Assembly (NCBI GenBank): GCA_947476285.1
Contig: CANJPU010000010.1
Span: forward strand, 1-64,000
Source of the DNA: Comamonadaceae bacterium
Lineage (GTDB): Bacteria; Pseudomonadota; Gammaproteobacteria; Burkholderiales; Burkholderiaceae_C
Direction of reading: 5' to 3'
DNA length: 64,000 nucleotides
Shown in pieces: positions 9,847 to 30,718 of the stretch; position 1 is the stretch's first letter; each line of letters opens with the position of its first letter. The notes beneath the pieces are model-generated. The model saw nothing but the letters and a program-made list of their open reading frames with translations, had not been told where the DNA came from and searched no databases. A program made the position numbers and the translations under genes.

Positions 9847-10017
9847 GCTTTTGTTGGACTGAGTTGTTCAGCTACAGCTTTCGCGCACTCGGACTAACCC
9901 GCAGTCTCGACCGATTGCGGAAAATTGTCTATGCTGAACGGCGTTTTGTTTCGACAATCATGGGCACCAGGATTTTTCCGGGCGGTGCCCGCCACTTCAC
10001 TTCACAGAAACCACTCC

Positions 10018-11004: not shown

Positions 11005-11019
11005 CCCGCCACACAAACC

Positions 11020-11877
11020 ATGACCACAGACAAAACCTACGAAACCATCACCTGCACCATCGACCGGCACCGCGCGCGCATCGTGCTGAACCGGCCCGAC
11101 AAACGCAACGCCATCAACCAACTGATGCAAGACGAATTGGCCGACGCGCTGTGGACCGCCGATGACGACACGCAAGTGCACTGCGTGATTCTGAGCGGCA
11201 GCGGTTCGGATTTTTCGTCAGGCTATGACATGGGCCAATACGAGGGGGCCAACCCCGGCGCACAAAACCGCCACCGGGGCCGCAAGAGCTTTGATGACGA
11301 TGCCTGGCGGCTAGAGAAAGCGCAGCGCTGCCGCATGGCCTTGTTTGACATGCACAAGCCGGTGATCGCCCAGGTGCATGGCCGCTGCCTGGCCGGCGGC
11401 ACCGATCTGGCACTGATGTGCGACATCGTGATCTGCGCCGATGATGCGCGCTTTGGCTTTCCACCGGCGCGCGCGCAAGGCTCGCTGCCCAGCCACATGT
11501 GGCTCTACCATCTGGGCCCGCAATGGGCCAAGCGCATGCTGCTGACTGGCGATGCGATGGGCGGCAAGGACGCCGCCGCACTGGGCCTGGCACTCAAGTC
11601 GGTGCCCGCCGATCAGCTTGCCGCAGAGGTAGATGCACTGGCCGACCGCCTCGCCATGATCGACACCGATTTGCTCTCGGCCAACAAGCGCATCGTCAAC
11701 ATCGGCCTGGAGCTGATGGGCGCACGCACCATTCAGCGCATGGCAGCCGAGATGGACGCGCGCGGCCACCTGGCCGAAAGCCGCGAGACCTTCCGAAAGA
11801 ACGTGATGGAAAAAGGCATGAAAGAAGCGATTCGGCTTCGCGACGGAGCATTTGGCGATGACCTCATCCGCCGCTGA
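11020..11877 (+). CDS. Crotonase-fold (enoyl-CoA hydratase/isomerase-like) protein
   Basis: A 285-residue crotonase-family protein. The first oxyanion-hole segment is SGSGSDFSSGYDMGQY and the second GRCLAGGTDLALMCDIVICA. In classical enoyl-CoA hydratases the catalytic glutamates lie in a GGGCELA-type motif and in an FGxPE motif. Here these read GGTDLA and FGFPPAR, so at least one glutamate is replaced by aspartate and the other is absent. A non-hydratase activity (isomerase, hydrolase, decarboxylase) is therefore as likely as hydration. It overlaps the next gene by 20 bases. Confidence 0.85.
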   Translation: MTTDKTYETITCTIDRHRARIVLNRPDKRNAINQLMQDELADALWTADDDTQVHCVILSGSGSDFSSGYDMGQYEGANPGAQNRHRGRKSFDDDAWRLEKAQRCRMALFDMHKPVIAQVHGRCLAGGTDLALMCDIVICADDARFGFPPARAQGSLPSHMWLYHLGPQWAKRMLLTGDAMGGKDAAALGLALKSVPADQLAAEVDALADRLAMIDTDLLSANKRIVNIGLELMGARTIQRMAAEMDARGHLAESRETFRKNVMEKGMKEAIRLRDGAFGDDLIRR

Positions 11878-14074: not shown

Positions 14075-14093
14075 TTCTTCAGCGGAGGCTTTT

Positions 14094-14948
14094 ATGGCAT
14101 TCACACTCAAGCCCCTCACCCCTCACATGGGCGTTGAACTGACCGACTTCGACCCACGCGAGCCCTTTGACGATGCGACGGCGCGCGACCTGTACGACCT
14201 GATCAAGCGCCACCGCGTACTGCTGTTTCGCGCCAAGCCCTTGACCGAGGAACAACAGGTGCGTCTGACCTGCGTGGCCGGCGAAGTGACTTACCGAGGC
14301 GGGGGAAACTACGCCGACCCAGAGATGAAGTCTTGGATGGTGTCCAACTACCATGCCGATGGGCAATTCGGCAATGGCGAGTTGTCATTTCACTCTGACT
14401 TGAGCTTCACACCCCATATGCTCAAGGCGCGCTCGCTGCACGGGATTGCAGTGCCCTCTTCGCGCGAGGCGGGTGGCGAAACATTGTTCTCCGATGTCAT
14501 CAGAGCCTACGAGGAACTTGACGACACACTCAAGGCCCGGGTGGAAAATCTACGTGCCCGCTTTTCCGCGACCTACAACTATCCCGATGGCAGGGTGGAG
14601 ACGCTGGATCAAATGCGCCCGCTGATCGAGACCCATCCGTTCACAGGCCAACGCCTCATCGCCGCCAGCCGCGCAGTGACCAAGGAAGTGATCGGCATGG
14701 AGCGTGAGGAATTTCGGCCACTGCTCAAGCAACTGTGGGCACAGATGGAAAAGCCGGAATATGTGCTGCGCCATAGCTGGTCGGTGGGCGACACGGTGCT
14801 GTGGGACAACATCGGCACACAGCATGCACGCACGCCATTTGACTCCAGCGAGAAGCGGGCGCTGCGCGCAGTATCGGTTGACGATCCGTCCATCAGCATC
14901 CGCGCTAAAGACGCAGCCAACAGCGCCAAGCTGACGCAAAAGGCCTGA
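14094..14948 (+). CDS. TauD/TfdA-family Fe(II)/2-oxoglutarate dioxygenase
   Basis: A 284-residue member of the taurine/2,4-D dioxygenase family. The iron ligands are visible: H100 and D102 in FHSDLSF, and H244 in GTQHARTPF. The 2-oxoglutarate arginine lies shortly after, in KRALRAVSV. A strong ggagg at 14084-14088 precedes the ATG. These enzymes hydroxylate a carbon next to a sulfonate, ether or carboxylate to release a small acid. Position at the end of the Bug/crotonase/acyl-CoA synthetase run suggests that it attacks the same substrate, which is unknown. Confidence 0.88.
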   Translation: MAFTLKPLTPHMGVELTDFDPREPFDDATARDLYDLIKRHRVLLFRAKPLTEEQQVRLTCVAGEVTYRGGGNYADPEMKSWMVSNYHADGQFGNGELSFHSDLSFTPHMLKARSLHGIAVPSSREAGGETLFSDVIRAYEELDDTLKARVENLRARFSATYNYPDGRVETLDQMRPLIETHPFTGQRLIAASRAVTKEVIGMEREEFRPLLKQLWAQMEKPEYVLRHSWSVGDTVLWDNIGTQHARTPFDSSEKRALRAVSVDDPSISIRAKDAANSAKLTQKA

Positions 14949-14969
14949 GGTCGGTTCTGCAGCGGGAGA

Positions 14970-15326
14970 CTACTGGGCCGCCTGTCGGCTCTGCACTCTT
15001 TTCATCAGTTGGCTGATGCGGTTTCTGCTGACGTCAAATTCAATGCCCAGCGCCGCGCAGGTTTCGCCGGCCAGTCGCCTGCGCGCAATTTCCTGGAGCA
15101 TCTCTGCGGTCCACCTCACATTGGAGTGTCCTCGGCCCAGCGCTTTCTTGATGCATCTGGCGGCCGAGGCCTGCTGCTGATGCTTGTGCGCAGAGTCCAT
15201 ACAGGTCCACCACTGACGCATCTCGAATCGCACTTGCGGTTTGAACTGATCACCGGGCACGGCTGTCTCTAACGGCGTGTCTTGAACATCAGAACGATCT
15301 TGCAGGGATAAAGTTTCTTGCTGCAT
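14970..15326 (-). CDS. Small protein with a C-terminal helix-turn-helix-like segment
   Basis: I do not recognise the family. The start at 15326 is chosen over one 66 bases upstream because agaggtg lies eight bases before it. The 118-residue product has a polar N-terminal half and a C-terminal region (about 70-115) with the pattern RRRLAGETCAALGIEFDVSR followed by NRISQLMKRV, which reads as a helix-turn-helix. It could be a small regulator. It is transcribed against both flanking catabolic genes. Confidence 0.55.
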   Translation of the reverse strand: MQQETLSLQDRSDVQDTPLETAVPGDQFKPQVRFEMRQWWTCMDSAHKHQQQASAARCIKKALGRGHSNVRWTAEMLQEIARRRLAGETCAALGIEFDVSRNRISQLMKRVQSRQAAQ

Positions 15327-15517
15327 ATTGGCACCTCTTGCCGCGTTTTTCTCATGACCCGCCTGACCGGAAACTGACCAAGGATTAAGCATTTACCGCA
15401 GTCTCACAAACTGTGACAAGTTCTTGTGGCAGGTCGCGGCCTGTGTCGCCAATAGCGTGCCGTTTCCTGCAGACGCAGCACTGAGGTAAGCTCCTGCGAG
15501 GCATCCACACACAGCCC

Positions 15518-17203
15518 ATGACACCATCCCCCTCACCCACCATTGATTCTTCCGCTGTACAGGCGCTGCTGGCGCAATTGCGCGGCTTGTTCGATCACGG
15601 GCTGGACGCGCTGGCCGGCCAGTGCGCGCGAGACGGCGTGCTGGCTGCCGATCTGCTGGATCAGTGGCAACCACCTTGTTATGAAATCGCGTTTGCCGCA
15701 GCCGAATTGCTGGCTGCGCAAACGGCGCTTGCCTCTGCCACCAAGAGCACACCGCGCGAGTTGGACCTTGCGCACGCCTTCGCCTGCGAAGCGGCGGTCT
15801 CAGTGACCACGCGGCTGCAATCGGTGTTCGCAGATGTCGGGCTTGATAGCAAAGGGCTGACGCAGTTTGCATGCGGCCCAGAGATGCAGCATCTGCGCGA
15901 ATCGTTTGGTAGTACACACATGCTGGCTCGGCTGGGGCGTGAGTTGGCGCAGGCCGGCCCTGATCTTGAAGTGGGTGCGGTGGTGCTGGATGATTTGGCG
16001 GCCATGGCGCAGGACGCTTTCCGCCGCTTTGCCACCGATGTGGTGGCGCCGATGGCACAGCGCATTCATCGGCAAGACCTGACGGTGCCCGAGGATTTGC
16101 TCGGGCCACTGCGGCGCATGGGCGTGTTTGGCTTGTCGATTCCCGAGGAGTTTGGCGGCAGCGCACCGGCGGGCAGCGAAAACGCGATCGTGATGATCGC
16201 TGTGACCGAGGCACTCTCGCAGGCCTCACTGGCCGCAGCAGGCAGCCTGATCACGCGGCCCGAGATTTTGGCCCGTGCGCTGCTGGCCGGCGGCACGCCC
16301 GCACAAAAGAAACACTGGTTGCCCCAGATCGCAGCAGGGCAACCCCTGTGCGCAATTGCCATCACCGAGCCTGACTTCGGCTCGGACGTGGCCAGCCTGA
16401 ACTTGCGCGCAACCCGCACGCCAGGCGGCTGGCTGCTGAACGGCGCCAAGACCTGGTGCACTTTTGCAGGCAAGGCCGGCCTGCTGATGGTGGTGGCCCG
16501 TACCGGCACTGAGCGCGCGCAGGGGCACAAGGGCTTGAGCCTGATTCTGGTGGAGAAGCCTTCATTCGAGGGCCATGAATTCAATTGCCCGCAGCCTGCC
16601 GGCGGCCTGCTGAGCGGCCGCGCGATTCCCACCATTGGCTATCGCGGCATGCATTCATTCGACTTGTCGTTCAAGGATTTCTTCGTCACCGACGATCATG
16701 TGATTGGCGGCGAGCAAGGGCTGGGCAAGGGCTTTTACTTCACCATGGCCGGCATGGTGGGCGGGCGCATGCAAACTGCCGCCAGAGCCTGCGGCGTGAT
16801 GCGCGCGGCCCTGGCCGAATCAATCTCCTATGCGCGTGATCGGCGGGTGTTTGGCGCAGCCCTTGCCGACTTGTCCCTCACACAAGTGAAGATCGCCCGC
16901 ATGGCCGCGCGGCTGGCCGCCTGCCGCCAACTGACCTATGCGGTAGGCCATATGCTGGAGAGCGGTCAGGGCCGCATGGAAGCGAGCCTGGTCAAACTCT
17001 TTGCCTGCCGCAGCGCCGAGGCGCTGACCCGCGACGCCTTGCAGATCCACGGCGGCATGGGCTATGCGGAAGAGTCCGCCGTCAGCCGCTACTTTGTCGA
17101 TGCGCGCGTGCTCTCGATTTTCGAAGGTGCGGAGGAAACGCTGGCGCTCAAGGTGGTGGCACGCAGCCTGCTGGAAGATGCGTTGGCGAAGGTGCGCGAA
17201 TAA
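15518..17203 (+). CDS. Long acyl-CoA dehydrogenase, methylsuccinyl-CoA dehydrogenase-like
   Basis: A 561-residue FAD acyl-CoA dehydrogenase. The canonical 380-residue core occupies the C-terminal two-thirds, with GVFGLSIPEEFGGS, AIAITEPDFGSDVAS, NGAKTWCTFAGKAGLLMVVA, IHGGMGYAEES and the likely base in FEGAEETLALK. About 170 extra N-terminal residues precede it. This extension is known from (2S)-methylsuccinyl-CoA dehydrogenase of the ethylmalonyl-CoA pathway, so that is the closest functional guess. Crotonyl-CoA carboxylase/reductase and the mutases of that pathway are not in the window, so the substrate may be another branched dicarboxylyl-CoA. Confidence 0.85.
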   Translation: MTPSPSPTIDSSAVQALLAQLRGLFDHGLDALAGQCARDGVLAADLLDQWQPPCYEIAFAAAELLAAQTALASATKSTPRELDLAHAFACEAAVSVTTRLQSVFADVGLDSKGLTQFACGPEMQHLRESFGSTHMLARLGRELAQAGPDLEVGAVVLDDLAAMAQDAFRRFATDVVAPMAQRIHRQDLTVPEDLLGPLRRMGVFGLSIPEEFGGSAPAGSENAIVMIAVTEALSQASLAAAGSLITRPEILARALLAGGTPAQKKHWLPQIAAGQPLCAIAITEPDFGSDVASLNLRATRTPGGWLLNGAKTWCTFAGKAGLLMVVARTGTERAQGHKGLSLILVEKPSFEGHEFNCPQPAGGLLSGRAIPTIGYRGMHSFDLSFKDFFVTDDHVIGGEQGLGKGFYFTMAGMVGGRMQTAARACGVMRAALAESISYARDRRVFGAALADLSLTQVKIARMAARLAACRQLTYAVGHMLESGQGRMEASLVKLFACRSAEALTRDALQIHGGMGYAEESAVSRYFVDARVLSIFEGAEETLALKVVARSLLEDALAKVRE

Positions 17204-20338: not shown

Positions 20339-20806
20339 ATGTCTTCTCCCCCAATTTCTCCTCTGGCTCAAGCAGTCGATCGGCTTTGCCTGCGCAAGGG
20401 CAGCCGGCTCAAGGATCTGGGCCGCGCGCCTGTCGATCGCATTTCAGTGCGGCGCTTTCGCGAGGCGCTGGGTTTGCCGCCCGACCCCGCGCTGGGCGTG
20501 CCGCCGATGCTGGTTCACCACCTCCTGCGGCCTGATGTCGATGTGACCGTGGACGTCAGGCCGCACGAGACCATCGACTCGGTGCTGGACAACCCGGTCA
20601 ATGGCGGCACCGAAGTCAGCTTCAACCGCGCCTTGCGCCTGGAAGAAACCATCAGCGGCGAGCTGGTGCTGGCCGACGCCTATTTGCGTGAAGGCAAGAG
20701 CGGCGCGATGGCGGTGGTGGTGACCGAGTCACGCTACAGCGACGCGCAAGGCGCCCCAGTGGCCTGCGTGCGCTCGACCATGATCTATCGGGGGGCCAAG
20801 CCATGA
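20339..20806 (+). CDS. Half-size MaoC-like hotdog protein, likely non-catalytic partner
   Basis: A 155-residue protein with MaoC/FAS1-dehydratase-like features, including NPVNGGTEVSFNRALRLEE and a beta-rich C-terminal half ending VACVRSTMIYRG. It lacks the Asp-x4-His hydratase motif. In steroid side-chain degradation two small MaoC proteins (ChsH1/ChsH2-type) form one hydratase, one subunit holding the active site and the other binding the long acyl-CoA. This protein fits the second role. Its stop overlaps the next start in ATGA, so the subunits are made together. Confidence 0.7.
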   Translation: MSSPPISPLAQAVDRLCLRKGSRLKDLGRAPVDRISVRRFREALGLPPDPALGVPPMLVHHLLRPDVDVTVDVRPHETIDSVLDNPVNGGTEVSFNRALRLEETISGELVLADAYLREGKSGAMAVVVTESRYSDAQGAPVACVRSTMIYRGAKP

Positions 20807-21246
20807 TCGACGCGCCCCTGACCGCAGCCCGGGTGCTGGCCGCGCAAGCCGGTGATGTACTGGGCACGGCGACGCTGCCACCCGTGAGCAGCACACAGCT
20901 TGCGTTTTATTGCGCCGCCAGCGGCGTGACCGACCCAATTCATTTCGACCGTGAATTCGCCCGCCGCGCCGGCTTTACCGACCTGGTGGTCAATGGCTCG
21001 CTGCGCGTGGCCTGGATGGCGCAGGCCTTGAGCAGCCTGGTTGAGGCCCGCGGCATGCTGGTGGGGCTGTCTTGTTCGCACCGGGGCATGATGCTGGCGG
21101 GCGATGCACCCTGCATCCAGGCCCGCTATGCCGGACATGAACAAGAGCCAGACGGCGCGCTGCTGGTCAGGCTGCAGGTGGACACCAGCGTGCAGGGCCA
21201 GACGCGCGATGTGGGGCAAGCCACGGTGCGCCTGGCGCCAGCCTGA
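20803..21246 (+). CDS. MaoC-like enoyl-CoA hydratase, catalytic half
   Basis: A 147-residue single hotdog. The segment FYCAASGVTDPIHFDREFAR carries the Asp and His of the R-specific hydratase motif, followed by GFTDLVVNGSLRVAWMAQ, which is also typical. With the preceding gene it should form a heteromeric hydratase that adds water across an alpha,beta-unsaturated acyl-CoA made by the acyl-CoA dehydrogenases encoded next. It is translationally coupled to its partner. Confidence 0.8.
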   Translation: MIDAPLTAARVLAAQAGDVLGTATLPPVSSTQLAFYCAASGVTDPIHFDREFARRAGFTDLVVNGSLRVAWMAQALSSLVEARGMLVGLSCSHRGMMLAGDAPCIQARYAGHEQEPDGALLVRLQVDTSVQGQTRDVGQATVRLAPA

Positions 21247-21284
21247 GATCAACCCTGTGCAAACACAAGAAAGGCAGTGCCTCT

Positions 21285-22442
21285 GTGCTGATTGAATTTT
21301 CCCCGCAAATCGAAGACTTCAAACGCGAAGTGGCAAGCACCTTCAGCAAGTTGCAGCGGCCCGAGTGGCTTTCGCTGGACCTGGAGTGTCCGGAGTATCT
21401 GGCGCTGGGGCGACAGATGGACCAGGAGCTGATACGCAGGGGCTGGTATGTGGAGCACTGGCCGCACGACTATGGCGGCGGCGGCACTGCCGACTCGTTC
21501 ATGCGCCATGCGGTACTGCGCGAAATGGAGGGCTACTTTCGGGTGCCTACCTTTGGTGGCCACGGCCGCTACATCGTCGGGCCGGCACTGATCGAGTTCG
21601 GCACGCCTGAGCAAAAAAAGCGCTACTTGCCGCCCATTGCGCGCGGCGAAACTGTGATCTGTCTAGGCTTTACCGAGCCCGACGCTGGCAGCGACCTGGC
21701 GGCCATGCAACTGAAGGTGGTGCGCGATGGTGACTACTTTGTCGCCAACGGCAGCAAGCTCTACATCACCTACGGCCATTACGCGACTTCCATGCTGCTG
21801 GCCGCGCGCACCGACAACAGCGGCAAGCGCCACGATGGGGTGAGCCTGTTCTTGATGGACATGAAGCTACCCGGCATCACGGTAAGCCCGCTTCATTGCC
21901 TGACAGGTCACCAGGTCAACGAAGTGCACATGGACAATGTGCGCATACCTGCCGATGCACTGCTGGGCGAGCAAGGCCGGGGCTTCTATCACATGACGGT
22001 GGCGCTGAACTTCGAGCGCTCGGGCCTGGACCTGCCGGCCAAGTACATGGCGCAACTGGAAGACGTGGCCGAATACGCCCGCGCCACCGGCCGCTGGCAG
22101 CGCAGTGCCATACGCGAAGGCATAGGCAGGCTGGCCGCTATCCTGGAAGCCTGGCGCATGATCTGCTGGCGCGTGGTGATGCTGCAAGTCAAGGGCCAGG
22201 TGCCAAGCTGGGAGGCGTCCATGGCCCAGTTCTATCGCAAGGATTTCAATCCGCAGTTCGGCCGCCTGATGCTGGAGGTGATGGGGCCGCAGGCCCTGGT
22301 GGAACGCGGCGAACCACGCTCCACACTGAGTGGGCGGATCGAATGGTATCTGCGGGAGTCCTTCAACAACCACGGACAGGGCGGACGCTTTGTCACACGC
22401 AATGTGATCGGCCGGCGCGGGCTGGATCTGCCGCGCAAGTAA
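21285..22442 (+). CDS. Acyl-CoA dehydrogenase, FAD-binding subunit (ChsE/FadE-like)
   Basis: A 385-residue acyl-CoA dehydrogenase starting at GTG 21285 behind aagg. The flavin-contact segments CLGFTEPDAGSDLAAMQ and VANGSKLYITYGH are present. The C-terminus reads NNHGQGGRFVTRNVIG rather than the usual EGT-type motif, which is common in subunits of heteromeric steroid acyl-CoA dehydrogenases. A candidate base is the glutamate in VALNFERSG. Immediately downstream is a divergent relative, so a mixed alpha/beta enzyme like ChsE1/ChsE2 is likely. Confidence 0.85.
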   Translation: MLIEFSPQIEDFKREVASTFSKLQRPEWLSLDLECPEYLALGRQMDQELIRRGWYVEHWPHDYGGGGTADSFMRHAVLREMEGYFRVPTFGGHGRYIVGPALIEFGTPEQKKRYLPPIARGETVICLGFTEPDAGSDLAAMQLKVVRDGDYFVANGSKLYITYGHYATSMLLAARTDNSGKRHDGVSLFLMDMKLPGITVSPLHCLTGHQVNEVHMDNVRIPADALLGEQGRGFYHMTVALNFERSGLDLPAKYMAQLEDVAEYARATGRWQRSAIREGIGRLAAILEAWRMICWRVVMLQVKGQVPSWEASMAQFYRKDFNPQFGRLMLEVMGPQALVERGEPRSTLSGRIEWYLRESFNNHGQGGRFVTRNVIGRRGLDLPRK

Positions 22443-22457
22443 AGGCATCGCAAGAAC

Positions 22458-23576
22458 ATGAACGACACCACCGACAACGCCACCGACGACACCTACACAT
22501 TGCTGCGCGATTCGGCCCGTGATTTTTGCGCGGGCCTGGCACAGCAGCCTGCTGGCCGAGAACACGACACACGGCTTTGGAAAGAGATGGCCCAACTGGG
22601 CTGGATGGGCGTGGCCATCGCCGAAGAACTGGGCGGCTCAGCCAACGGGCTGGTGGGCGCAGGCGTGATCGCCAGCGAACTGGGCCGGGTCGGGCAGATC
22701 CGCGGCTATGCCGAGACCGTGGCTTTCGCGGCGGCACTGGAGCGCGCGGGCCAACACACAAGCAAGCCAGTGGCCGCGCTGCTGCGCGCAGTGGCACAGG
22801 GCGAGATTCAACTGGGTTTCATGCGCGCGTTCACCGATGCCCGTGTGGCTGTCGGCGATGCGGTCAGTGAGGCGAGCGACGGTCTCATGCCGGATGCAGG
22901 CGCACCCCGCGTGGGCCTGGTCATGCTCTCACCGAGCGGCGAGTTGATGTTGCATGAGTTGGGCACAACTGCTAGGCAGACACTCTTGCGAACCACCTCG
23001 CGCGCTGCCGACATTCACTTGCAGCTCGATGCCATCGCGCGCGATGCCGGCAACACGCGCAGCATGCTGGCCGCAGGCGAGCAGGCCCGCGCGGTTTGGG
23101 CCGACGCGCAGATGCTGTACCGGCTACTCACCGCCGCACAGCTCATTGCCGCAACGCAGGCCGCGCTGGGCATATGCACTGATTACGCGAAGGTGCGTTC
23201 TCAGTTCGGCCAGTTGATCGGCTCGTTCCAGGCGGTGCAGCATGCACTGGTGGATATTCTGGCCAGCTCGGATGCGGGCGAACTGCTGGTCTTGCGCGCT
23301 CTGGCGGCACTGGACCATGGCGCGGCCGACCAACAATCGCTGGCGGCAGCGGCCACCGCGTTCGCCCGTGAGACGGCCTGGACCGGCCTGATGAAGAGCT
23401 ATGACATCATGGGCGGCGTTGGCTTCGTGGAGGTCCATCCGATCAACCGCCTCACTCGCGCGCTGCTGCCTGCAATCGCCAGCATTGGCTCAACCAGTGA
23501 ATGCGAAGACGCGGTGGCCGAACATGTCCGACCCGGCCACTGGCTGGCACAACCCGAAGCGAGAATGCGCACATGA
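22458..23576 (+). CDS. Acyl-CoA dehydrogenase-like partner subunit
   Basis: A 372-residue, more divergent acyl-CoA dehydrogenase. The N-terminal helical domain has LWKEMAQLGWMGVAIAEELG, and the C-terminal domain has VRSQFGQLIGSFQAVQHALV and YDIMGGVGFVEVHPINR. The middle beta domain is weakly conserved and lacks the usual TEPxAGSD flavin loop. It is therefore best read as the second subunit of a heteromeric enzyme with the preceding gene, 15 bases upstream. The stop overlaps the DUF35 start in ATGA. Confidence 0.82.
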   Translation: MNDTTDNATDDTYTLLRDSARDFCAGLAQQPAGREHDTRLWKEMAQLGWMGVAIAEELGGSANGLVGAGVIASELGRVGQIRGYAETVAFAAALERAGQHTSKPVAALLRAVAQGEIQLGFMRAFTDARVAVGDAVSEASDGLMPDAGAPRVGLVMLSPSGELMLHELGTTARQTLLRTTSRAADIHLQLDAIARDAGNTRSMLAAGEQARAVWADAQMLYRLLTAAQLIAATQAALGICTDYAKVRSQFGQLIGSFQAVQHALVDILASSDAGELLVLRALAALDHGAADQQSLAAAATAFARETAWTGLMKSYDIMGGVGFVEVHPINRLTRALLPAIASIGSTSECEDAVAEHVRPGHWLAQPEARMRT

Positions 23577-24031
23577 ACCAGGCAACCCCATCCACCACCG
23601 CGCCGCCGGCCAAGCCGCTGCCAATTCCAAGCGAACTCGCGCAACCCTTCTGGGACGCGCTGCGCCGCAATGAGCTGCATCTGCAGCGCTGCGATTCCTG
23701 CGGCTTCTTCAACCATCCACCGCGCATCTGCTGCCCGCAATGCCATGGGCATGCGCTCACCTGGACAAAGGTCGAGCCGCGCGGCACGGTGTACAGCTAC
23801 ACCATCGTGCACCGCCCGCCAGTGCCGGCCTTCAAGGCCGACGTGCCCTATGCGGCCGCCCTGGTGGAGATAGTGGGCACCAACGCCAAGCTCTTGTCCA
23901 ACTTGATCGCACCGCTAGACCAACTGCGCATCGGCATGCCAGTGGAGGTGGTGTTTGATCCGGTCAATTCAAATATATCGCTGTTTCGCTTCCGTCCGCA
24001 GGCAGCGGACCTCACCACGGAGAGCCGCTGA
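23573..24031 (+). CDS. DUF35 zinc-ribbon/OB-fold protein, partner of the thiolase-like protein
   Basis: A 152-residue DUF35 protein. The N-terminal helix FWDALRRNELHLQRCDSCGF leads into a rubredoxin-like zinc site (C-x2-C in RCDSCG and ICCPQCHG), followed by an OB fold with VEPRGTVYSYTIVHRPP. DUF35 proteins pair with thiolase-fold enzymes. In the steroid aldolase Ltp2 the DUF35 domain is required for the retro-aldol activity. The start overlaps the preceding stop, and the stop overlaps the next start by one base, so a stoichiometric complex is likely. Confidence 0.87.
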   Translation: MNQATPSTTAPPAKPLPIPSELAQPFWDALRRNELHLQRCDSCGFFNHPPRICCPQCHGHALTWTKVEPRGTVYSYTIVHRPPVPAFKADVPYAAALVEIVGTNAKLLSNLIAPLDQLRIGMPVEVVFDPVNSNISLFRFRPQAADLTTESR

Positions 24032-25209
24032 TGGCCACACCTGATTACGCCGCTACCCGCAGCCTGTTGAAGGGCGCCGCCATCGTGGGCGTGCACACCA
24101 CCGAACAGGGCGACTTGCCCAATCGCAGCAGTGACGACTTGCTGCTCGAATCCATCGAGGGCGCGCTGGCCGATGCCGGCATGACCATCGACGATGTAGA
24201 TGGCATCGCCGGCGGGCGCAGCCCAACCGACAGCGCGGCCACCGCATTCCCCGCTTACTGGGCAGAGATGCTGGGCCGACCGATTCGCTACTTCAGCACC
24301 GTGGACGCGGCAGCGGCTGCGCACTCGGCCAATATCCTGCACGCCGCATTGGCCGTGGCTGCGGGGCTGGCCGAGACGATTGTGGTGGTGGGCGGTGGCA
24401 GCCGCGGCGGATCGCGCCAGGAGAACGTCGAGAAGATGGCCTATGCGCATGGCGAGTTCGATGTGTCATGGGGCACGCTGGTGCCCTCATGGTTCGCGCT
24501 GGCCGCGCGTCGCCACATGCATGAGTTCGGCACCACATCAGAGCAGTTGGCCGAGATCGCAGTGGCCACCCGCGCATGGGCCGGCATGCACCCGCAGGCC
24601 ATCATGAAAAAGCCGATCACCGTTGCCGATGTGGTGGGCTCACGCATGATCTCCGACCCCTTGCACCTGCTGGATTGCTGCCTGTCCAATGACGGCGCGG
24701 GCGCGTTGGTGATCACCAGCAAGGCGCGCGCGGCCGACTGCCGCAAGAAGCCGGTGCAGGTGCTGGGCGGCGCGGAGGACTACACCTTCCAGGGCTATGT
24801 GAACGTCAGCCATGACTGGCTGGTCTCGGGCGCGGTGCATGCTGGCAAGCGCTCGCTGGAGATGGCCGACCTGAAGCACGATGACATCGATCTGCTGGAA
24901 ATTTACGACTGCTTCACCATCACGGTCTTGCGCATGCTGGAAGACCTGGGTTTTTGCAAGCGCGGCGAAGGCGGCCCTTGGGTCGCCGATGGCAAGCTGC
25001 GCCCCGGCGGCAGCCATCCGCTCAACACACACGGCGGTGGCCTTTCATGGGGGCACAGCTTCTCGGGCCTGGCCCACGGCATCGAGGCGGTGCACCAGCT
25101 ACGCGGTGAATGCGGCGAGCGTCAGGTCGCCGGTGCGCGCACTGCCCTGGTCCACAGCCAGGGCGGGCCGCTGGCCATGCACAGCACCGTGATATTGGCC
25201 ACACCTTGA
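24031..25209 (+). CDS. Thiolase-fold lipid-transfer-like protein, probable Ltp2-type acyl-CoA aldolase
   Basis: A 392-residue SCP-x/thiolase-like protein. Family landmarks are the N-terminal GAAIVGVHTTEQGDLPNRSS, the middle AAAAHSANILHAALAVAAG, DIDLLEIYDCFTITVLRMLE and NTHGGGLSWGHSF. In real thiolases a nucleophilic cysteine precedes the helix at about residue 90. Here the corresponding place reads DAAAAAHSA, with no cysteine. This matches Ltp2-type enzymes, which cleave a hydroxyacyl-CoA by retro-aldol chemistry together with a DUF35 partner, encoded just upstream. The acyl substrate is unknown. Confidence 0.82.
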   Translation: MATPDYAATRSLLKGAAIVGVHTTEQGDLPNRSSDDLLLESIEGALADAGMTIDDVDGIAGGRSPTDSAATAFPAYWAEMLGRPIRYFSTVDAAAAAHSANILHAALAVAAGLAETIVVVGGGSRGGSRQENVEKMAYAHGEFDVSWGTLVPSWFALAARRHMHEFGTTSEQLAEIAVATRAWAGMHPQAIMKKPITVADVVGSRMISDPLHLLDCCLSNDGAGALVITSKARAADCRKKPVQVLGGAEDYTFQGYVNVSHDWLVSGAVHAGKRSLEMADLKHDDIDLLEIYDCFTITVLRMLEDLGFCKRGEGGPWVADGKLRPGGSHPLNTHGGGLSWGHSFSGLAHGIEAVHQLRGECGERQVAGARTALVHSQGGPLAMHSTVILATP

Positions 25210-25219
25210 AGGCTTGAAC

Positions 25220-26425
25220 ATGCTGCCTCTGAACGGCATTCGGGTGGTGGACATCACCCGTTTTATCTCCGGCCCTTTCTGCGCCATGTACCTGGGCGAC
25301 CTGGGCGCCGACGTGATCAAGATCGAGCATCCGCGCGATGGCGATGGCACGCGCCGATGGGGCTCAGGCCCGCACGCCGCGGACAACCCCTACTACCTCT
25401 CGGTCAATCGCAGCAAGCGCTCGCTCGGTCTAGATTTGAAACACCCGCAGGGCTTGAAGATTCTGGAACAACTGATCGCCAAGAGCGACGTGCTACTGAC
25501 CAACTCGATCCCCGGCACGCTCGATGAGATGGGCCTGGGCGCGCAACGGCTGCGCGAGATCAACCCCCGCCTGGTGTCATGCCAGATTACCGGCTTTGGC
25601 GACAAGGGGCCCGACAGCCAGCGCGGCGCCTTCGACTTCACCGTGCAAGCCGAGTCGGGGCTGATGTCGCTGGTGGGCGAGCCCGAAGGCGCGCCGATGA
25701 AGGTGGGCGCGCCGATACTGGACGTGCTCAGCGGGCTCAACGCCTGCGTGGGCGTGCTGGCCTCGCTGATGGCCAGGCAGGCCGGCGGCGAGCCGATGAA
25801 GGTCTCCACCTCCATGATTGAGACCGCGATTTGCAGCATGCCCAACATCGTGAGCGACTACCTGGTGGGCGGGCTGATTCCGCAGCGCCACGGCAATGCG
25901 CACCCGAATCTGATGCCCTATGAAATCTATGAAACCAGCGACCGCTGGCTGGCACTGGGCATGGGCAACGAGCCGCAGTGGGCGCGCTTTTGCGAACTGA
26001 CAGGCCGCGCCGACCTCAAGGCAGACCCGCGCTTCAAAGTCAACACCGACCGCCTGGCAAACCGCGACGTCCTGAACGAACAACTCAAGCCCATCTTCGC
26101 CGCGCATCCGCTGGCATGGTGGCAGCGCGCACTGGCCGATGCGTCCATACCCTGCGCCGCCGTCAATTCAGTGCCCGATGCACTGGCCAGTGCGCAGGTG
26201 CAAGCCCTGGACATCGTGCGCGATGTGCCGCACCCGCTGTATGGCAGCTTCAAGATGGCGCGCTCGCCGATCAGCCTGGACGACACGCCGCTTGAAATCA
26301 AGAGGCCCCCGCCGTGCCTGGGCCAACACACCGACGAGGTGTTGACGCAAGTGCTGGGTTTGTCGGCGGCGCAGATTGCGCAACTGCGTGAAGCACGGGT
26401 GGTGGCTGGCGCTGCAGTGGGGTGA
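25220..26425 (+). CDS. CaiB/BaiF (class III) CoA-transferase
   Basis: A 401-residue class III CoA-transferase. The ATG at 25220 follows GAAGG with seven bases spacing. The sequence begins LPLNGIRVVDITRFISGPFC, and continues with LGADVIKIEHP and NRSKRSLGLDLK. The expected catalytic aspartate lies in GAPILDVLSGLNACVG near residue 170. It closes the operon that starts with the MaoC pair and would activate the imported acid by transferring CoA from another thioester, avoiding ATP use. A truncated relative lies at 110-559. Confidence 0.9.
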   Translation: MLPLNGIRVVDITRFISGPFCAMYLGDLGADVIKIEHPRDGDGTRRWGSGPHAADNPYYLSVNRSKRSLGLDLKHPQGLKILEQLIAKSDVLLTNSIPGTLDEMGLGAQRLREINPRLVSCQITGFGDKGPDSQRGAFDFTVQAESGLMSLVGEPEGAPMKVGAPILDVLSGLNACVGVLASLMARQAGGEPMKVSTSMIETAICSMPNIVSDYLVGGLIPQRHGNAHPNLMPYEIYETSDRWLALGMGNEPQWARFCELTGRADLKADPRFKVNTDRLANRDVLNEQLKPIFAAHPLAWWQRALADASIPCAAVNSVPDALASAQVQALDIVRDVPHPLYGSFKMARSPISLDDTPLEIKRPPPCLGQHTDEVLTQVLGLSAAQIAQLREARVVAGAAVG

Positions 26426-26447: not shown

Positions 26448-27770
26448 TTATTTTCGCGCGATGGCCATCAGCGCTTGCAGTGGCTGGCTGGCACGACGGT
26501 CCAGATCCATGATGCCGCTCCAGGCTGCCTCGGTTTCCTCTGGCGCGTAGCCTGCGTACTCGAAGCACGCGTCAAACTTCGCGCGTGCCGCATCGTCGCC
26601 GGGCGGCGCCTGGTAGGCTTGGTCGAAGAGTTTGACCGCACCGCTCTTCATTTGCACTTCAATGCGCGCCTGCGGCAGCCCGGCCTCGTCGGTGCCGCTG
26701 TCAACGATGTTCACACGCTGGGCCATGCTCAGGGCGGCCGGGTCGCTCAAGGCTGCGTCGTTGAGCGTGCGCAAACTCACCTCGCCTCGCACCAATGTGA
26801 AAGCCACCATGAAGGGAATGCTGTACTTGGCATCCTGCAAGGTCTGCGGCACTCTTCGCTCTTCGATCGGCGAGCACAGCTTGGCGGCGGATTTGTTGAC
26901 GCTGACAGTCACGCGCTCGATGTCTGACAGGTCGAGTCCGGCCCTCAGGTGCAGCGCGGCCGAAATGAAGGGGTGTGAAAACCGGCAACTCGGCCAGGGC
27001 TTGACTTCGGTGTCGGCCCATACCGAAACAGTGGGCGCGAGCAACTGGCGCGTCTGATCGGCATCAAGATGACGGCCGAAGTAGATGCGAAAGAATCCTG
27101 CCTCTCCATCGAGTGCAGTAGCCGGCCCGATCATGCCGGCGCGCGCCAGCAGCGCAGCTTGCACGCCGCCCATGGCAGCGAAGGCCGGATAGATCGCCCT
27201 GGCATTGCTGCCGGTACCAAAGCCTGCCTCTTTGCCGCCAGCAGCCTGCATATAGGCCAAGCCGAAGGCCGAGCGAATCTGCGCCGCATCCAGCCGCATG
27301 ATGATGCCCGCTGACAGTGCCCCAGAAAAATACCCAAACAATTGCGTGAGAAACCAGTCCGATCCTGGGCCACGGCCTTGCGGCTTCCAGATGGCACCCA
27401 GCCGGCACAGCAACTCATTGGACAGTGACACCGCATCGACCACTTCAGCCCCGGTGGTGTCCGGCCCCGCCACAGCCAGGGCTGCCGGCAAGTTCACTGC
27501 CGTAGGGTGCACACGCGCCATATCATGGATATCGTCGAAGTCCATGATGTGGCCATAGGCTGAGGCAGCGAATGCATACTCGGCCCCCTGCGGCGCGGCG
27601 CTTGCGCAGCCCTTGCGCACGATCTGCGCCAGGGGGCTGGCCTCGCGCGCGGCGACCGAGATGGCGACGTTGTCCGCGATGTGCATGCGCGCCTTCTGAC
27701 GCATGGCGTCCGACAAGCCATGCGCGCGTTGTTCAAAGGCGCTGGCGATGACCTGCGTGCTCAGGGTCAT
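26448..27770 (-). CDS. MmgE/PrpD-family protein
   Basis: A 440-residue member of the 2-methylcitrate dehydratase/aconitate decarboxylase/iminodisuccinate epimerase superfamily. ATG 27770 is preferred to the upstream TTG because GAGG lies six bases before it. The central segment AYGHIMDFDDIHDMARVHPT matches the family pattern (HxxDFDD...HP), and GGVQAALLARAGMIGP is the usual helix. The precise reaction, which may be dehydration, decarboxylation or epimerisation of a tricarboxylate-like acid, cannot be read. It ends a four-gene minus-strand operon with a binding protein. Confidence 0.87.
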   Translation of the reverse strand: MTLSTQVIASAFEQRAHGLSDAMRQKARMHIADNVAISVAAREASPLAQIVRKGCASAAPQGAEYAFAASAYGHIMDFDDIHDMARVHPTAVNLPAALAVAGPDTTGAEVVDAVSLSNELLCRLGAIWKPQGRGPGSDWFLTQLFGYFSGALSAGIIMRLDAAQIRSAFGLAYMQAAGGKEAGFGTGSNARAIYPAFAAMGGVQAALLARAGMIGPATALDGEAGFFRIYFGRHLDADQTRQLLAPTVSVWADTEVKPWPSCRFSHPFISAALHLRAGLDLSDIERVTVSVNKSAAKLCSPIEERRVPQTLQDAKYSIPFMVAFTLVRGEVSLRTLNDAALSDPAALSMAQRVNIVDSGTDEAGLPQARIEVQMKSGAVKLFDQAYQAPPGDDAARAKFDACFEYAGYAPEETEAAWSGIMDLDRRASQPLQALMAIARK

Positions 27771-27778
27771 GGCTTGCC

Positions 27779-28447
27779 TCAACTCACGGACTTTGCCGCA
27801 TCGGTCAGCGTTTTGCCAGCCGCCACCGCGCCTTCCATGCGCGTGTCGGAGGCATTGACGCGCTCGGCGATGGCCAGCACTTCATCCAGGCGGTCGCGCG
27901 GCACCACCACGATGCCGGTGGGGTCGCCAATGATCAGGTCGCCCCGGCGCACGCGCACGCCCGACAAATTGATGGGCTCGCCAAAGCTGTGCAGGTGCAC
28001 GCGACGTTTGCCCGTGCGCGGCGTGACGTGGCGGCTGGCGACCCACAAGCCAGCCTTGCGAATGTCGGCCACATCGCGGCAGGCACCATTGATGATGACG
28101 GCTTCGATGCCGCGCTTGAATGCGGACAAGGCGACGATGCCACCCATCATGGAGACCTCGGCGCCGCCGGCATCGACCATCAGCACTTCGGTGGGGCCGG
28201 CCGCAGCGACCATGCGGTCCTGGCCGAAGTCTTTCAGCTCGAAGCCGCCGAGCGCGCGCACTTCGGCTTGCACCGTTACGGCAAATCCGGCGCAGCGCCC
28301 TTCGCCGCTGCGTTGGGGCAGACCGGAGAGCACGCCCTCGATGCCCAGTTCGTCCATCGCATCGGACCAAGTGGCAGAGCTGATGCGCAGGCAACGCTGG
28401 AGCAGCGCACGCGCGGCTTCGATGTCGGGATTGCTTAGGCTACTCAT
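27779..28447 (-). CDS. RraA-like protein (possible HMG/CHA-type aldolase)
   Basis: A 222-residue RraA-fold protein beginning MSSLSNPDIEAAR. The segments SATWSDAMDELGI, GGAEVSMMGGIVALSAFKRG, INGACRDVADIRKAGLWVAS and GDLIIGDPTGIVVVPRD are typical. Proteins of this family include regulators of RNase E and metal-dependent aldolases for 4-hydroxy-4-methyl-2-oxoglutarate or oxaloacetate decarboxylation. In an operon with MmgE/PrpD and a lactonase-like protein, the aldolase/decarboxylase role is far more likely than RNase E control. Confidence 0.85.
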   Translation of the reverse strand: MSSLSNPDIEAARALLQRCLRISSATWSDAMDELGIEGVLSGLPQRSGEGRCAGFAVTVQAEVRALGGFELKDFGQDRMVAAAGPTEVLMVDAGGAEVSMMGGIVALSAFKRGIEAVIINGACRDVADIRKAGLWVASRHVTPRTGKRRVHLHSFGEPINLSGVRVRRGDLIIGDPTGIVVVPRDRLDEVLAIAERVNASDTRMEGAVAAGKTLTDAAKSVS

Positions 28448-28451
28448 GGCA

Positions 28452-29336
28452 TCAGCCCGCAAAGCGCGGCACCGCGAAGCCCTTGGCGCCAGTGTGCGCG
28501 ACGAACAAGGCACCTGCCAGCGGCTGCGGCGCGAGTTGCTCGGGCGTGAGCTTCTGGTAGGCGGTGGTGATGTAGAGGGTGTCGAGTTGCGGCCCGGCGA
28601 ATGTGCAGCAGGTGGGCTGCGTGACGGGCAGTTCGATCACGCGGTCGATCTTGCCGGCCGGTGTGTAGCGCACGATGCGCGAGCCCCCGTACTTGGCATT
28701 CCACAGGCAGCCATCGGTGTCGATGGCCGAGCCGTCGGGCGCGCCGGCCTCGTCGGCGCAGTCAACAAACACCCGGCGGTTGGAGATGCGGCCTTCTGCG
28801 CCGTCGTAGTCAAACACCCAGATTTTCTTGGCCGGTGTGTCGGCGAAGTACATGAGTTTGTCGTCGGGGCTGAACACGGTGGAGTTGGGTATGTCGACCT
28901 GGTCGAACACCTTGCGCACCGACAGGTCGGGGTCGACCCGATAGAAGGAGCCGAGCGGACCGCGCTCGGTGTCGTGCATGGTGCCGACCCAGAATCGGCC
29001 ACGGGTGTCGGGCCGGCCATCGTTGAGGCGATGGCCGGGGATCTTGTCTTCAAGGGCCAGCAGGCGCTCGCACTTTCCGCTGCTGTGATCGAAGCCATAG
29101 AGGCCATCCTGCAAGGAGAGCAGCGCGCCACCGCGTTCGCGAAATGCCCAACTGCCCACGGAGGTGGTGGGCAGCTTGAACTGGCGGTGCTCGCCGGTGC
29201 CGGGGTGCCAGTGCTGCAACAAAGGTGCGCGCACATCGATCCACCACAGCCTGCCATCCTGTGCATTCCACAGCGGCACTTCGCCCAGCGCGTCGCGGCA
29301 TTTGAACGCGCATTCGGCTTTTAATACGTCGGCCAT
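28452..29336 (-). CDS. SMP-30/gluconolactonase/LRE-family protein
   Basis: A 294-residue six-bladed propeller of the SMP-30 family, starting at MADVLKAE (29336). Likely metal ligands are the glutamate in LGEVPLWN, the asparagine in GHRLNDGRPDTRGRFWVGTM, an asparagine in DIPNSTVFSPDD and the aspartate in APDGSAIDTDGCLWNA. Such enzymes open sugar or organophosphate lactones using a divalent metal. Packed between an RraA-like aldolase and a Bug receptor, it probably opens a lactone made from the imported compound. Confidence 0.87.
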   Translation of the reverse strand: MADVLKAECAFKCRDALGEVPLWNAQDGRLWWIDVRAPLLQHWHPGTGEHRQFKLPTTSVGSWAFRERGGALLSLQDGLYGFDHSSGKCERLLALEDKIPGHRLNDGRPDTRGRFWVGTMHDTERGPLGSFYRVDPDLSVRKVFDQVDIPNSTVFSPDDKLMYFADTPAKKIWVFDYDGAEGRISNRRVFVDCADEAGAPDGSAIDTDGCLWNAKYGGSRIVRYTPAGKIDRVIELPVTQPTCCTFAGPQLDTLYITTAYQKLTPEQLAPQPLAGALFVAHTGAKGFAVPRFAG

Positions 29337-29370
29337 ATGAGTCTTTCTTGGAGTCTTTCTGGCGTTGAAC

Positions 29371-30375
29371 TTATTGAACCTTGACGCCGGTTTCGCGCTG
29401 GATGTCGCGAAAGATCCGGTGCTCGCTGGCGACAAAATCTTTGACTTCGGAGACTGACTTGGACGGGTACGGCAACAGCGAGCCTGTCCTCAAGCCCTTG
29501 ATGACTTCCGGGTCGGCAACTGCCTCAGTGATTGAACGGCGCAGCTTTTCGCTGACATCGGCAGGCATGCCTGGCGGACCTAGCAGAATCAGCCAGTTGC
29601 GCATGGCAAATTGCAGTGGCTGGGACTGTTCGATCAGTGTCTTCGCGTTGGGCAGCATGGAAGACTTTTCGGTATTGGTCAGCACCGCCACCGAACGCAG
29701 TCGGCCCTGGTCAACCATGGGCTTGACGGTGCCGGCAATGTCGTTGAGCACACCATCCACATGGCCACCCACTGCATCGATGATGGCCGGGCCACCGCCC
29801 GCGTAGGGCACCGGCACCATCTTGGCTCCGGTGTCCATGTTGATCTTTTGCAGAATCAGCTCAGGCTGGCCGCCACGCCCTGCCACGCCGATGCGGATGG
29901 GCCGGGTCTTGGACAGATCGATCAATTCCTTGAGGCTGTTGGCCGGAACGGCCGGGTTGACCAGCAGGGCAGATTCGGACGTGGCCACCAGAGAGATGGG
30001 GGTGAAGTCCTTGAGCGCGTCGTAGGGCAGATTGGGGAAGGTATGCGGATTGACCACGATGGGGCTGGCAGTCGTGATGAGCACCGTGTAGCCGTCGGGC
30101 TGCGACTTGGCCAGAAAGCTCAGCGCGATGCCGCCATTGGCGCCGGCCATGCTTTCCACGGTGACTGGCACGCCCAGCATCTGCGACAGCTTGGGGCCGA
30201 TGATGCGCGAGAGCGTATCGGTGGAGCCGCCCGGTGGATAAGGGGTGAGCAGGCGGATCGCCTTGCTGGGGTAAGTCTGGGCGAGCGCGACAGCGGCAGT
30301 CAGCGCGAACATGGCGGCAAACAAGCCGCGCAGCCACAGGCGAGCCAAGCCACCCGCATTGCAGGAAAAACGCAT
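29371..30375 (-). CDS. Bug/TctC-family binding protein
   Basis: A 334-residue receptor with AGGAG seven bases before the ATG at 30375. The signal peptide (to about residue 33, VALAQ) precedes TYPSKAIRLLTPYPPGGSTD. The segments VESMAGANGGIALSFLAKSQ and PDGYTVLITTASPIVVNPHT confirm the family. It is the first gene of the minus-strand operon with SMP-30, RraA and MmgE/PrpD genes, which suggests that it supplies their substrate. No membrane subunits are present. Confidence 0.92.
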   Translation of the reverse strand: MRFSCNAGGLARLWLRGLFAAMFALTAAVALAQTYPSKAIRLLTPYPPGGSTDTLSRIIGPKLSQMLGVPVTVESMAGANGGIALSFLAKSQPDGYTVLITTASPIVVNPHTFPNLPYDALKDFTPISLVATSESALLVNPAVPANSLKELIDLSKTRPIRIGVAGRGGQPELILQKINMDTGAKMVPVPYAGGGPAIIDAVGGHVDGVLNDIAGTVKPMVDQGRLRSVAVLTNTEKSSMLPNAKTLIEQSQPLQFAMRNWLILLGPPGMPADVSEKLRRSITEAVADPEVIKGLRTGSLLPYPSKSVSEVKDFVASEHRIFRDIQRETGVKVQ

Positions 30376-30718
30376 GTATGTCTCCTCGATGGAATGGGCA
30401 ATCGTGCACTCATCCGGCAATGTGGTCAATTAGCATTTATGGCTTCGTCCAGTCAAATTTCGCAGGATCGCAGTGCAGATGGTGGCACCCTCGCTCGGAC
30501 CCGGCCATGGTGAGGTCAAGACGCCGACCTTTTTCAACTGCCATTGGTTTGTCGCCTTCTACGGCTGAAGCACTGGGCATGTGCGAATCCGCCACGCAAC
30601 TCAGGCAGACGCGATAAGTGTTCAAATCACTTTAACAAACAAACAGCAAATCGGCACTGAGGAATTTCATGAATGAGCGAAGCTTGGGTGCGCAGGTCTT
30701 GACGAGTCGGCGAGCACC
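30376..30718. other. Intergenic region between a Bug operon and an MFS gene
   Basis: About 340 bases separate two divergent genes and must contain both promoters. A short minus-strand frame (62 codons, 30437-30625) and an overlapping plus-strand frame are open, but neither has a ribosome site or a recognisable motif. I see no repeat or clear operator. It may contain a decayed gene. Confidence 0.4.

Follow-up and report, generated by a model that had tools for sequence, protein, structure and literature searches.

We analysed an operon of seven genes in a 64,000-nucleotide stretch of DNA (hereafter the window; contig CANJPU010000010.1, positions 1 to 64,000) from a Comamonadaceae bacterium (assembly GCA_947476285.1; 4.9 Mb in 117 contigs, 95% complete), together with the relatives of its products in this and other genomes.

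Gene content and layout of the operon

The seven genes, called here g1 to g7 (Table 1), occupy positions 20339-26425. They are co-directional and nearly gapless: three junctions overlap, the start of g5 at 23573 overlapping the stop of g4, and the remaining three are gaps of 38, 15 and 4 bases. The gene g7 is listed with a TTG start, ATG being its third codon. A first-pass annotation, made from the sequence alone, had described tightly coupled genes for two MaoC proteins, two acyl-CoA dehydrogenases, a DUF35 protein, a thiolase-like protein and a CoA-transferase; the layout agrees with this, and the gene kinds were confirmed by Pfam. A promoter scan gave a single weak site upstream of g1, and shuffled sequence gave as many.

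Table 1 Genes of the operon and of the adjoining region of the window
Gene	Position	Strand	Assignment	Pfam support	Relative beside the ortholog operon (identity)
g1	20339..20806	+	hot-dog protein, FAS1_DH region	PF13452, 33 bits	
g2	20803..21246	+	MaoC protein	PF01575, 35 bits	
g3	21285..22442	+	acyl-CoA dehydrogenase, three domains, alpha-type	PF02770/02771/00441	
g4	22458..23576	+	acyl-CoA dehydrogenase, N and C domains only, beta-type	PF00441/PF02771	
g5	23573..24031	+	free-standing DUF35 (zf-ChsH2 and OB_ChsH2_C)	PF01796, 70 bits; PF12172, 48 bits	
g6	24031..25209	+	thiolase-fold aldolase candidate	PF22691, 173 bits	
g7	25214..26425	+	class III (CaiB/BaiF) CoA-transferase	PF02515, 418 bits	
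MmgE/PrpD family	26448..27782	-	neighbour	PF03972 and PF19305	49%
RraA-like aldolase	27779..28513	-	neighbour	PF03737, 98 bits	no counterpart found
SMP-30/gluconolactonase	28452..29435	-	neighbour	PF08450, 277 bits	61%
TctC/Bug solute receptor	29371..30429	-	neighbour	PF03401, 160 bits	62%

This gene set is more than a product of chance, as the same seven genes recur in the same order, with 43-84% protein identity, in an independent bin from a lake metagenome (ErkenSummer_bin-2939; locus L044). For the ortholog search, six short g3 patterns were run against the genome contigs of 84,980 species; 21 stretches matched and this one locus was confirmed. A search with g3 at 1e-90 in 399 genomes of the order, in which four candidates per genome were scored, returned its own locus only, at a strict cut that would miss diverged orthologs. 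No paper on the operon was found in a literature search that was judged by title and abstract opening and had subscription papers and preprints outside its reach.

Protein families of the operon

The best matches of g3 among solved structures were T. curvata Tcur3483 (1e-51) and PDB entry 4x28 (1e-48), which we take to be ChsE4-ChsE5; the best PDB match of g4 was Tcur3481 (2e-14). The middle domain is present in g3, with a helix-G-like Glu244-Arg245, and E244, R245 and P88 are invariant in all five alpha subunits aligned. The middle domain is absent from g4, in which R247-x-Q249-F250-G251 is kept in the alignment. The steroid-type alpha2beta2 (ChsE) enzymes are heterotetramers with two molecules of flavin adenine dinucleotide (FAD) that act on steroid thioesters; as in these, the two subunits here are encoded side by side, and one has the middle domain and the Glu and the other the side facing the ADP-ribose of FAD. 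From their sequences, g3 and g4 look like complementary alpha and beta halves of a steroid-type acyl-CoA dehydrogenase, in which E244 would be the catalytic Glu of g3. For ChsE4-ChsE5 and ChsE1-ChsE2, the available parts of two papers (PMC11153573, PMC8399759) assign the flavin ring and the catalytic Glu to the alpha subunit and the contact with the ADP-ribose to the beta subunit, and Pro88 of g3 may match the proline that they describe as widening the cavity. An ordinary or pimeloyl-CoA dehydrogenase was rejected for g3, since the best NCBIfam model, PimC, gave 154 bits against a cut-off of 624 and Tcur3483 and 4x28 are the closest solved chains. When g4 was searched in 60 relatives, only 25-38% identity was seen outside its own locus among the matches listed.

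The DUF35 protein g5 consists of a rubredoxin-like zinc ribbon, with the pattern Cys-x2-Cys-x10-Cys-x2-Cys, and an OB fold, and it matched the DUF35 chains of CtShy (9myr_B, 2e-25) and of T. curvata ChsH2 (6ok1_B, 5e-22) in the PDB. Among the best PDB matches of g6 were 4u4e (5e-74), CtSal (9myr_A, 2e-52) and TcLtp2 (6ok1, 3e-52). In an alignment that sets g6 beside TcLtp2, CtSal and, from its own genome, a canonical thiolase (L070), it has A95 at the thiolase nucleophile position, followed by Y292-D-C294-F and H342. The nucleophilic Cys of canonical and SCP2 thiolases is thus missing from g6, while the control thiolase keeps it. The earlier description of g6 as cysteine-less is correct for this position but not for the protein, which holds six cysteines; one of them, C294 of YDCF, aligns with the catalytic Cys304 of Sal. 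In Sal, Tyr302 and Cys304 are catalytic and Gln352 stands where TcLtp2 has Tyr344, as given in the available part of PMC12329534. The Tyr302/Cys304 pair in YDC is matched by Y292 and C294, whereas the Gln352 position is His342 in g6 and His also in the control thiolase. In place of the YDHF motif and second catalytic Tyr344 of Ltp2, g6 has YDCF and His342.

Against NCBIfam PRK07855 (NF005892), which by our own reading is the Ltp2 model, g6 scored 258.5 bits, below the cut-off of 469. A quick tree of 46 rows was built, with support from the Shimodaira-Hasegawa-like approximate likelihood ratio test (SH-aLRT) only and after removal of four rows from L068 and L069 that were weakly related. In it, g6, its ortholog and a paralog (L049) form a supported group (97), which stands next to the Ltp2 group with weaker support (82); g6 is not grouped with CtSal, whose long branch, set apart, makes its position unsure. 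By alignment and tree, g6 is related to Ltp2 and Sal but was placed in neither characterised branch. Among 25 relatives of g6 in its own genome, a count that omits the L059 gene missed by the gene caller, the H342 position is His in 14, Tyr in 6 and another residue in 5; the Tyr of the YD motif is present in 21, its Cys in 8 and the nucleophilic Cys in 2 (L066 and L067).

For g1, no catalytic motif was seen, no PDB hydratase chain matched by sequence and a two-row profile matched nothing. Its AlphaFold2 model, with a predicted local distance difference test (pLDDT) of 73, was compared by Foldseek. At the top of the matches stood itaconyl-CoA hydratase (8huc/8khg) and, from the ChsH1-ChsH2 complex (4w78/4wnb), the longer chains, which we identify as ChsH2 from their length. 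The E-values were 4e-6 to 1e-5, with modest TM-scores by query length of 0.47-0.58; for the ChsH1-ChsH2 chains they were 6e-6 to 1e-5 and 0.50-0.58. On this model, g1 is probably an inert or substrate-binding MaoC subunit, similar to the MaoC part of ChsH2. In the alignment g2 keeps His47, and the Asp five residues before it is replaced by Val42, likewise Val in the ortholog; His47 and Asp44, three residues before it, are common to both copies. The PDB matches of g2 are weak and to R-hydratases. A five-row MaoC profile (g2, its ortholog and three other MaoC proteins including a ChsH1-like paralog) matches many MaoC chains, and the ChsH1-ChsH2 chains at 1e-15. The ChsH1-ChsH2 enzyme has an Asp/His dyad in one subunit and DUF35 fused to the inert MaoC domain; here the Asp position of g2 is occupied by Val, and g5 is a separate gene. 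Because of this substitution, hydration appears to be the weakest link of the scheme proposed below.

The first-pass annotation saw in these genes the same tool set as ChsE1/E2, ChsH1/H2 and Ltp2. The best structure matches of g3 to g6 are in keeping with this, but the score of g6 and the PDB search, in which g1 and g2 singly matched no ChsH1 or ChsH2 chain by sequence, are not.

The CoA-transferase g7 is closest to succinate-3-hydroxy-3-methylglutarate (HMG)/glutarate CoA-transferase (PDB 9br7, 4e-85), and in the PDB search it also matches a benzylsuccinate CoA-transferase subunit. It has the marks of a class III enzyme: PF02515 covers its full length, and Asp141 aligns with the Asp of SUGCT (9br7) that we take to be the catalytic residue of the family. 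Against NF052585 it reached 320 bits, below the cut-off of 750. An alpha-methylacyl-CoA racemase was rejected for g7, as racemase chains gave at most 111 bits against 289 for succinate-HMG CoA-transferase.

Steroid degradation genes

No match to KshA_C was found in the whole genome. In agreement with the first-pass annotation, Pfam scans of 18 window proteins found no steroid ring gene; among the other window genes and on the remaining 28.6 kb of the contig nothing steroid-like was seen, judged from the first 40 or 70 residues only, so that in this partial reading no steroid cluster lies beside the window either. For KstD, the scan covered 10 of the 17 best FAD_binding_2 loci; no protein reached a KstD cut-off, and the best scored 465 of 789.

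In the 399 genomes of the order, KshA_C gave any match in 25, a match over the cut-off in 15 and a full-model match in 4, and a g6 relative at 1e-60 or better, with at most four candidates scored per genome, was present in 73. One of the 4 genomes with full-length KshA_C has such a relative. Most carriers of g6 relatives are therefore without KshA, and the tie to steroid rings is weak; the weaker KshA_C matches are probably other Rieske oxygenases. One KshA locus (G281) holds an aldolase-like fragment and a 323-residue DUF35 protein, so the method does detect such clusters.

Two loci on other contigs of the genome resemble steroid side-chain genes more closely. The first (L065:7706-12799, contig C15) encodes a MaoC-DUF35 fusion, an acyl-CoA dehydrogenase, a MaoC protein, an Ltp2-like aldolase and an acyl-CoA dehydrogenase, then TctC and a CoA-transferase. 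Its gene order is that of igr and ORF40-44, the latter taken from the ORF numbers and functions in the available part of PMC12502768, and its aldolase is 64% identical to T. curvata Ltp2. The second (L062:8974-10434, contig C81) is a 487-residue protein of FAS1_DH, zinc ribbon/OB and MaoC parts, as if ChsH2 and ChsH1 were fused, and it adjoins an aldolase 67% identical to TcLtp2. These two aldolases reach 659 and 674 bits, above the PRK07855 cut-off that g6 fails. For comparison, the TA441 Ltp2 is 61-64% identical to those of four other genera, according to the same part of PMC12502768. Given these identities and scores, either steroid side chains are the substrates of the C15 and C81 aldolases or even an Ltp2-grade enzyme can serve other purposes. 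Relatives of g6 occur in many genomes without full-length KshA_C, in keeping with the first-pass view of an operon without steroid genes. With its igr-like operon and Ltp2-grade aldolase, however, the genome is not devoid of genes like those for steroid side chains, although no ring-opening gene was found in it.

Related modules and neighbouring genes

The genome has 28 matches to g6 at an E-value of 0.001 or better, one of which is a canonical thiolase by its motifs, and 24 matches to DUF35, 23 of them above the cut-off. The 27 thiolase-like genes and 24 DUF35 matches (loci L047-L069) are a strong expansion, each of the 60 relatives having at most 10 DUF35 matches, the next highest value of the 61 genomes searched. 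We looked within 6 kb of the 27 genes and found DUF35 at 23, an acyl-CoA dehydrogenase at 13, a hydratase at 18, an activator (a CoA-transferase or an ADP-forming ligase) at 14 and a TctC receptor at 24, the classes being assigned by similarity to seed proteins; given how common TctC genes are in this genome, the last count says little. Nine of the 27, g6 included, have all of DUF35, dehydrogenase, hydratase and activator nearby, and a MaoC pair, a double MaoC or a crotonase stands for the hydratase. L047, L049 and L050 show the same logic with crotonase or double MaoC.

At L049:5994-8390 the two dehydrogenase halves are fused into one protein of 799 residues, and the module also encodes a crotonase, an aldolase, DUF35, a CoA-transferase and MmgE. 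A protein of about 195 residues without a Pfam match adjoins aldolase modules at L047:9796-10386 and, in the ortholog bin, at L044:18350-18925.

In other genomes we inspected 20 loci that hold the best relatives of g6, some of them truncated by contig ends. DUF35 is present at 18, a dehydrogenase at 12, an activator at 13 and TctC at 16; DUF35, a dehydrogenase, a hydratase and an activator coincide at five. On plasmids, the relatives that g6 and g3 retrieved were all less than 60% identical. A related module near IS1071 on the Hydrogenophaga plasmid pBPS33-1 (L124; record positions 204-213 kb) has a CoA-transferase and two thiolase/OB-fold pairs, so modules of this kind may be mobile; plasmid 2 of Polaromonas JS666 has a cluster related to that of pBPS33-1.

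Next to the operon, relatives of MmgE/PrpD, SMP-30 and TctC also flank the ortholog, in orientations that differ from those of the window, and a GntR regulator is present in place of RraA. As this one ortholog locus keeps the gene order and the same neighbour families in other orientations, the conserved neighbours point to a functional link with the operon. The interval from 18.2 to 30.4 kb has 13 genes, and Pfam, run on 12 of them, found no 3-hydroxyacyl-CoA dehydrogenase and no other thiolase, hence a keto-thiolase route has no oxidation step there. Farther upstream, at 7091-17203 of the window, lie two ADP-forming acyl-CoA ligases, a crotonase, a TauD-like dioxygenase and an acyl-CoA dehydrogenase of 561 residues, possibly a separate acid pathway.

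Proposed function and alternative explanations

We propose, with a probability of roughly 0.57, that the operon carries out one shortening round on a carboxylic acid, not a steroid, whose breakdown ordinary beta-oxidation cannot complete. Precisely, g7 would transfer CoA to the acid from a donor thioester, probably succinyl-CoA, and a g3/g4 heteromer, with one flavin shared by the complementary halves, would form the 2-enoyl-CoA. The g1/g2 hot-dog pair would then hydrate it to a 3-hydroxyacyl-CoA, whose hydroxyl would probably be tertiary, and g6 bound to g5 would perform retro-aldol cleavage to acetyl- or propionyl-CoA and a ketone, aldehyde or 2-oxo acid. In g6, Tyr292 could act as the base on the hydroxyl and Cys294 as the acid on the released acyl-CoA enolate, with His342 in place of the Tyr of Ltp2 or the Gln of Sal. 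The branched acid and the CoA transfer named in the first-pass annotation are read from gene content. Our guess for the substrate is a branched dicarboxylate or a lactone-derived acid, which we favour because the closest g7 relatives act on dicarboxylates and because of the conserved TctC, SMP-30 and MmgE/PrpD neighbours. The proposal draws on a g6 that is without the nucleophilic Cys yet has the catalytic pair of Sal, on complementary dehydrogenase halves and on a DUF35 gene that adjoins g6. It also draws on the missing oxidation step for a keto-thiolase route, on the gene order and neighbours of the ortholog locus, on the nine comparable sets in the genome and on the weak tie to steroid rings.

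Several observations weigh against it. The canonical Asp of the MaoC dyad is missing from g2, the AlphaFold2 model of g6 has a pLDDT of 31, so that its active-site geometry is taken from sequence alignment, and substrate and products are assigned from gene content. MmgE, RraA and SMP-30 may belong to another pathway. The full seven-gene set was seen at none of the 20 loci described above, some of them cut by contig ends. The weaker KshA_C matches do occur together with g6 relatives, which are present in 12 of the 25 genomes that have any match and in 5 of the 15 with one over the cut-off, more often than in the whole set (73 of 399), and the aldolase fragment at the steroid-type G281 locus goes uncounted at the 1e-60 cut. 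In addition, the igr-like operon and the two Ltp2-grade aldolases keep steroid side chains possible for this genome.

In one alternative, which we hold unlikely, the operon serves a steroid or bile-acid side chain, the ring genes having been missed, lying in the missing part of an assembly that is 95% complete in 117 contigs, being replaced by a KshA-free route that needs no oxygen or being supplied by a partner. Tcur3483 and Tcur3481, the closest solved relatives of g3 and g4, presumably have a steroid role, and the igr-like operon and two proteins over the Ltp2 subfamily cut-off are in the same genome. However, KshA_C is absent in a search that does detect full-length matches in 4 of 399 genomes, one beside an aldolase-like fragment and DUF35; all 10 KstD-like candidates stay under the curated cut-offs; g6 falls outside the Ltp2 group; activation is apparently by a class III transferase and not by a ligase; and the rest of the contig, in its partial reading, has no recognised steroid gene. 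Similarly improbable is a beta-oxidation of the Bbs type, in which the DUF35-thiolase pair would cleave a 3-keto acyl-CoA thiolytically (Claisen) and an alcohol dehydrogenase would be encoded elsewhere. The bbs genes follow a comparable logic (class III transferase, acyl-CoA dehydrogenase, hydratase, BbsA DUF35 and BbsB thiolase), which counts in its favour, as do the matches of g6 and g5 to BbsB/BbsA models and structures and of g7 to the benzylsuccinate CoA-transferase subunit; but the scores are far under the Bbs equivalog cut-offs (148 of 750, 29 of 250), the nucleophile position is Ala and the operon has no dehydrogenase of that kind.

We give less credit to a third explanation, in which g1/g2 are a scaffold, isomerase or thioesterase and the hydroxyacyl-CoA is made elsewhere, for example from an SMP-30-opened lactone or by a crotonase. 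The Val at the catalytic Asp position of g2 in both known copies, the lack of an active-site motif in g1 and the crotonase encoded upstream at 11020-11877 would fit it, whereas the pair heads the operon in both genomes, with His47 and Asp44 of g2 kept. Finally, a biosynthetic or natural-product role (aldol or Friedel-Crafts-like acylation, as with PhlABC) is suggested by PhlC being a distant relative of g6. The resemblance is weak (67 bits, where the best chain reaches 253), and TctC-type receptors, CoA-transferase and dehydrogenase suit catabolism, which makes such a role very unlikely.

Comparison with known systems

The known role of such heteromeric dehydrogenases and DUF35-aldolases is in steroid use. 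A broader suggestion, which we offer tentatively and with less confidence than the function proposed for the operon, treats CoA-activated retro-aldol modules as a large family, of which the steroid side-chain aldolases would be two small branches. With a third, so far undescribed kind of active site (Tyr, Cys or another residue, His), the family would allow Burkholderiales-type bacteria to remove C2 or C3 units from many non-steroid, beta-blocked acids; the operon would be a rare, complete, CoA-transferase-driven example. If other acids are indeed served, predicting steroid degradation from a genome calls for a ring gene as well, and aldolases with the Tyr/Cys/His site would offer a way to study how bacteria degrade acids on which normal beta-oxidation is blocked. 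A panel for testing substrate range would be at hand in the 27 thiolase-like genes of one genome.

The cluster near IS1071 on pBPS33-1 of Hydrogenophaga sp. BPS33 has the order GntR, TctC, acyl-CoA dehydrogenase, enoyl-CoA hydratase, thiolase, OB, CoA-transferase, OB, thiolase; no functional study of it was found in the literature search. It shares the CoA-transferase, the thiolase/OB pairs and TctC with the operon but differs in its single dehydrogenase, its crotonase and the presence of two such pairs. The bbs operon likewise has a class III CoA-transferase, an acyl-CoA dehydrogenase, a hydratase and DUF35 with a thiolase-fold protein; it also has an alcohol dehydrogenase and a Cys thiolase, neither of which is present in the window's operon. 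For ibuprofen, ipfE presumably encodes a DUF35 protein that acts after ring dioxygenation, and we know of no operon of acyl-CoA dehydrogenase, MaoC and CoA-transferase genes of the window's form among the ipf genes. A non-steroid precedent is given by the thiolase encoded by ipfDE, which releases propionyl-CoA according to the available part of PMC9195938.

Sal-Shy, the aldolase and hydratase of the bile-acid C5 side chain (PDB 9myr; available parts of PMC12329534 and PMC11321319), shares with g6 the Tyr and Cys pair in YDC and a DUF35 partner. It differs in having Gln352 for His342, in its 34% identity to g6 over the part compared, and in its zinc ribbon, C3H1 as against C4 in g5; the hydratase is here a separate pair. 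The igr operon of Mycobacterium tuberculosis, which corresponds to ORF40-44 of Comamonas testosteroni TA441 (available part of PMC12502768), likewise combines two dissimilar acyl-CoA dehydrogenases and a pair of MaoC proteins with DUF35 and an aldolase of thiolase fold that lacks the nucleophilic Cys. The window's operon departs from it in a free-standing DUF35, which in igr is fused to MaoC, in a non-canonical MaoC dyad, in an aldolase that scores under the cut-off of the Ltp2 model, shares 36% identity with TcLtp2 over the compared part and has YDCF...H for YDHF...Y, and in the inclusion of a CoA-transferase.

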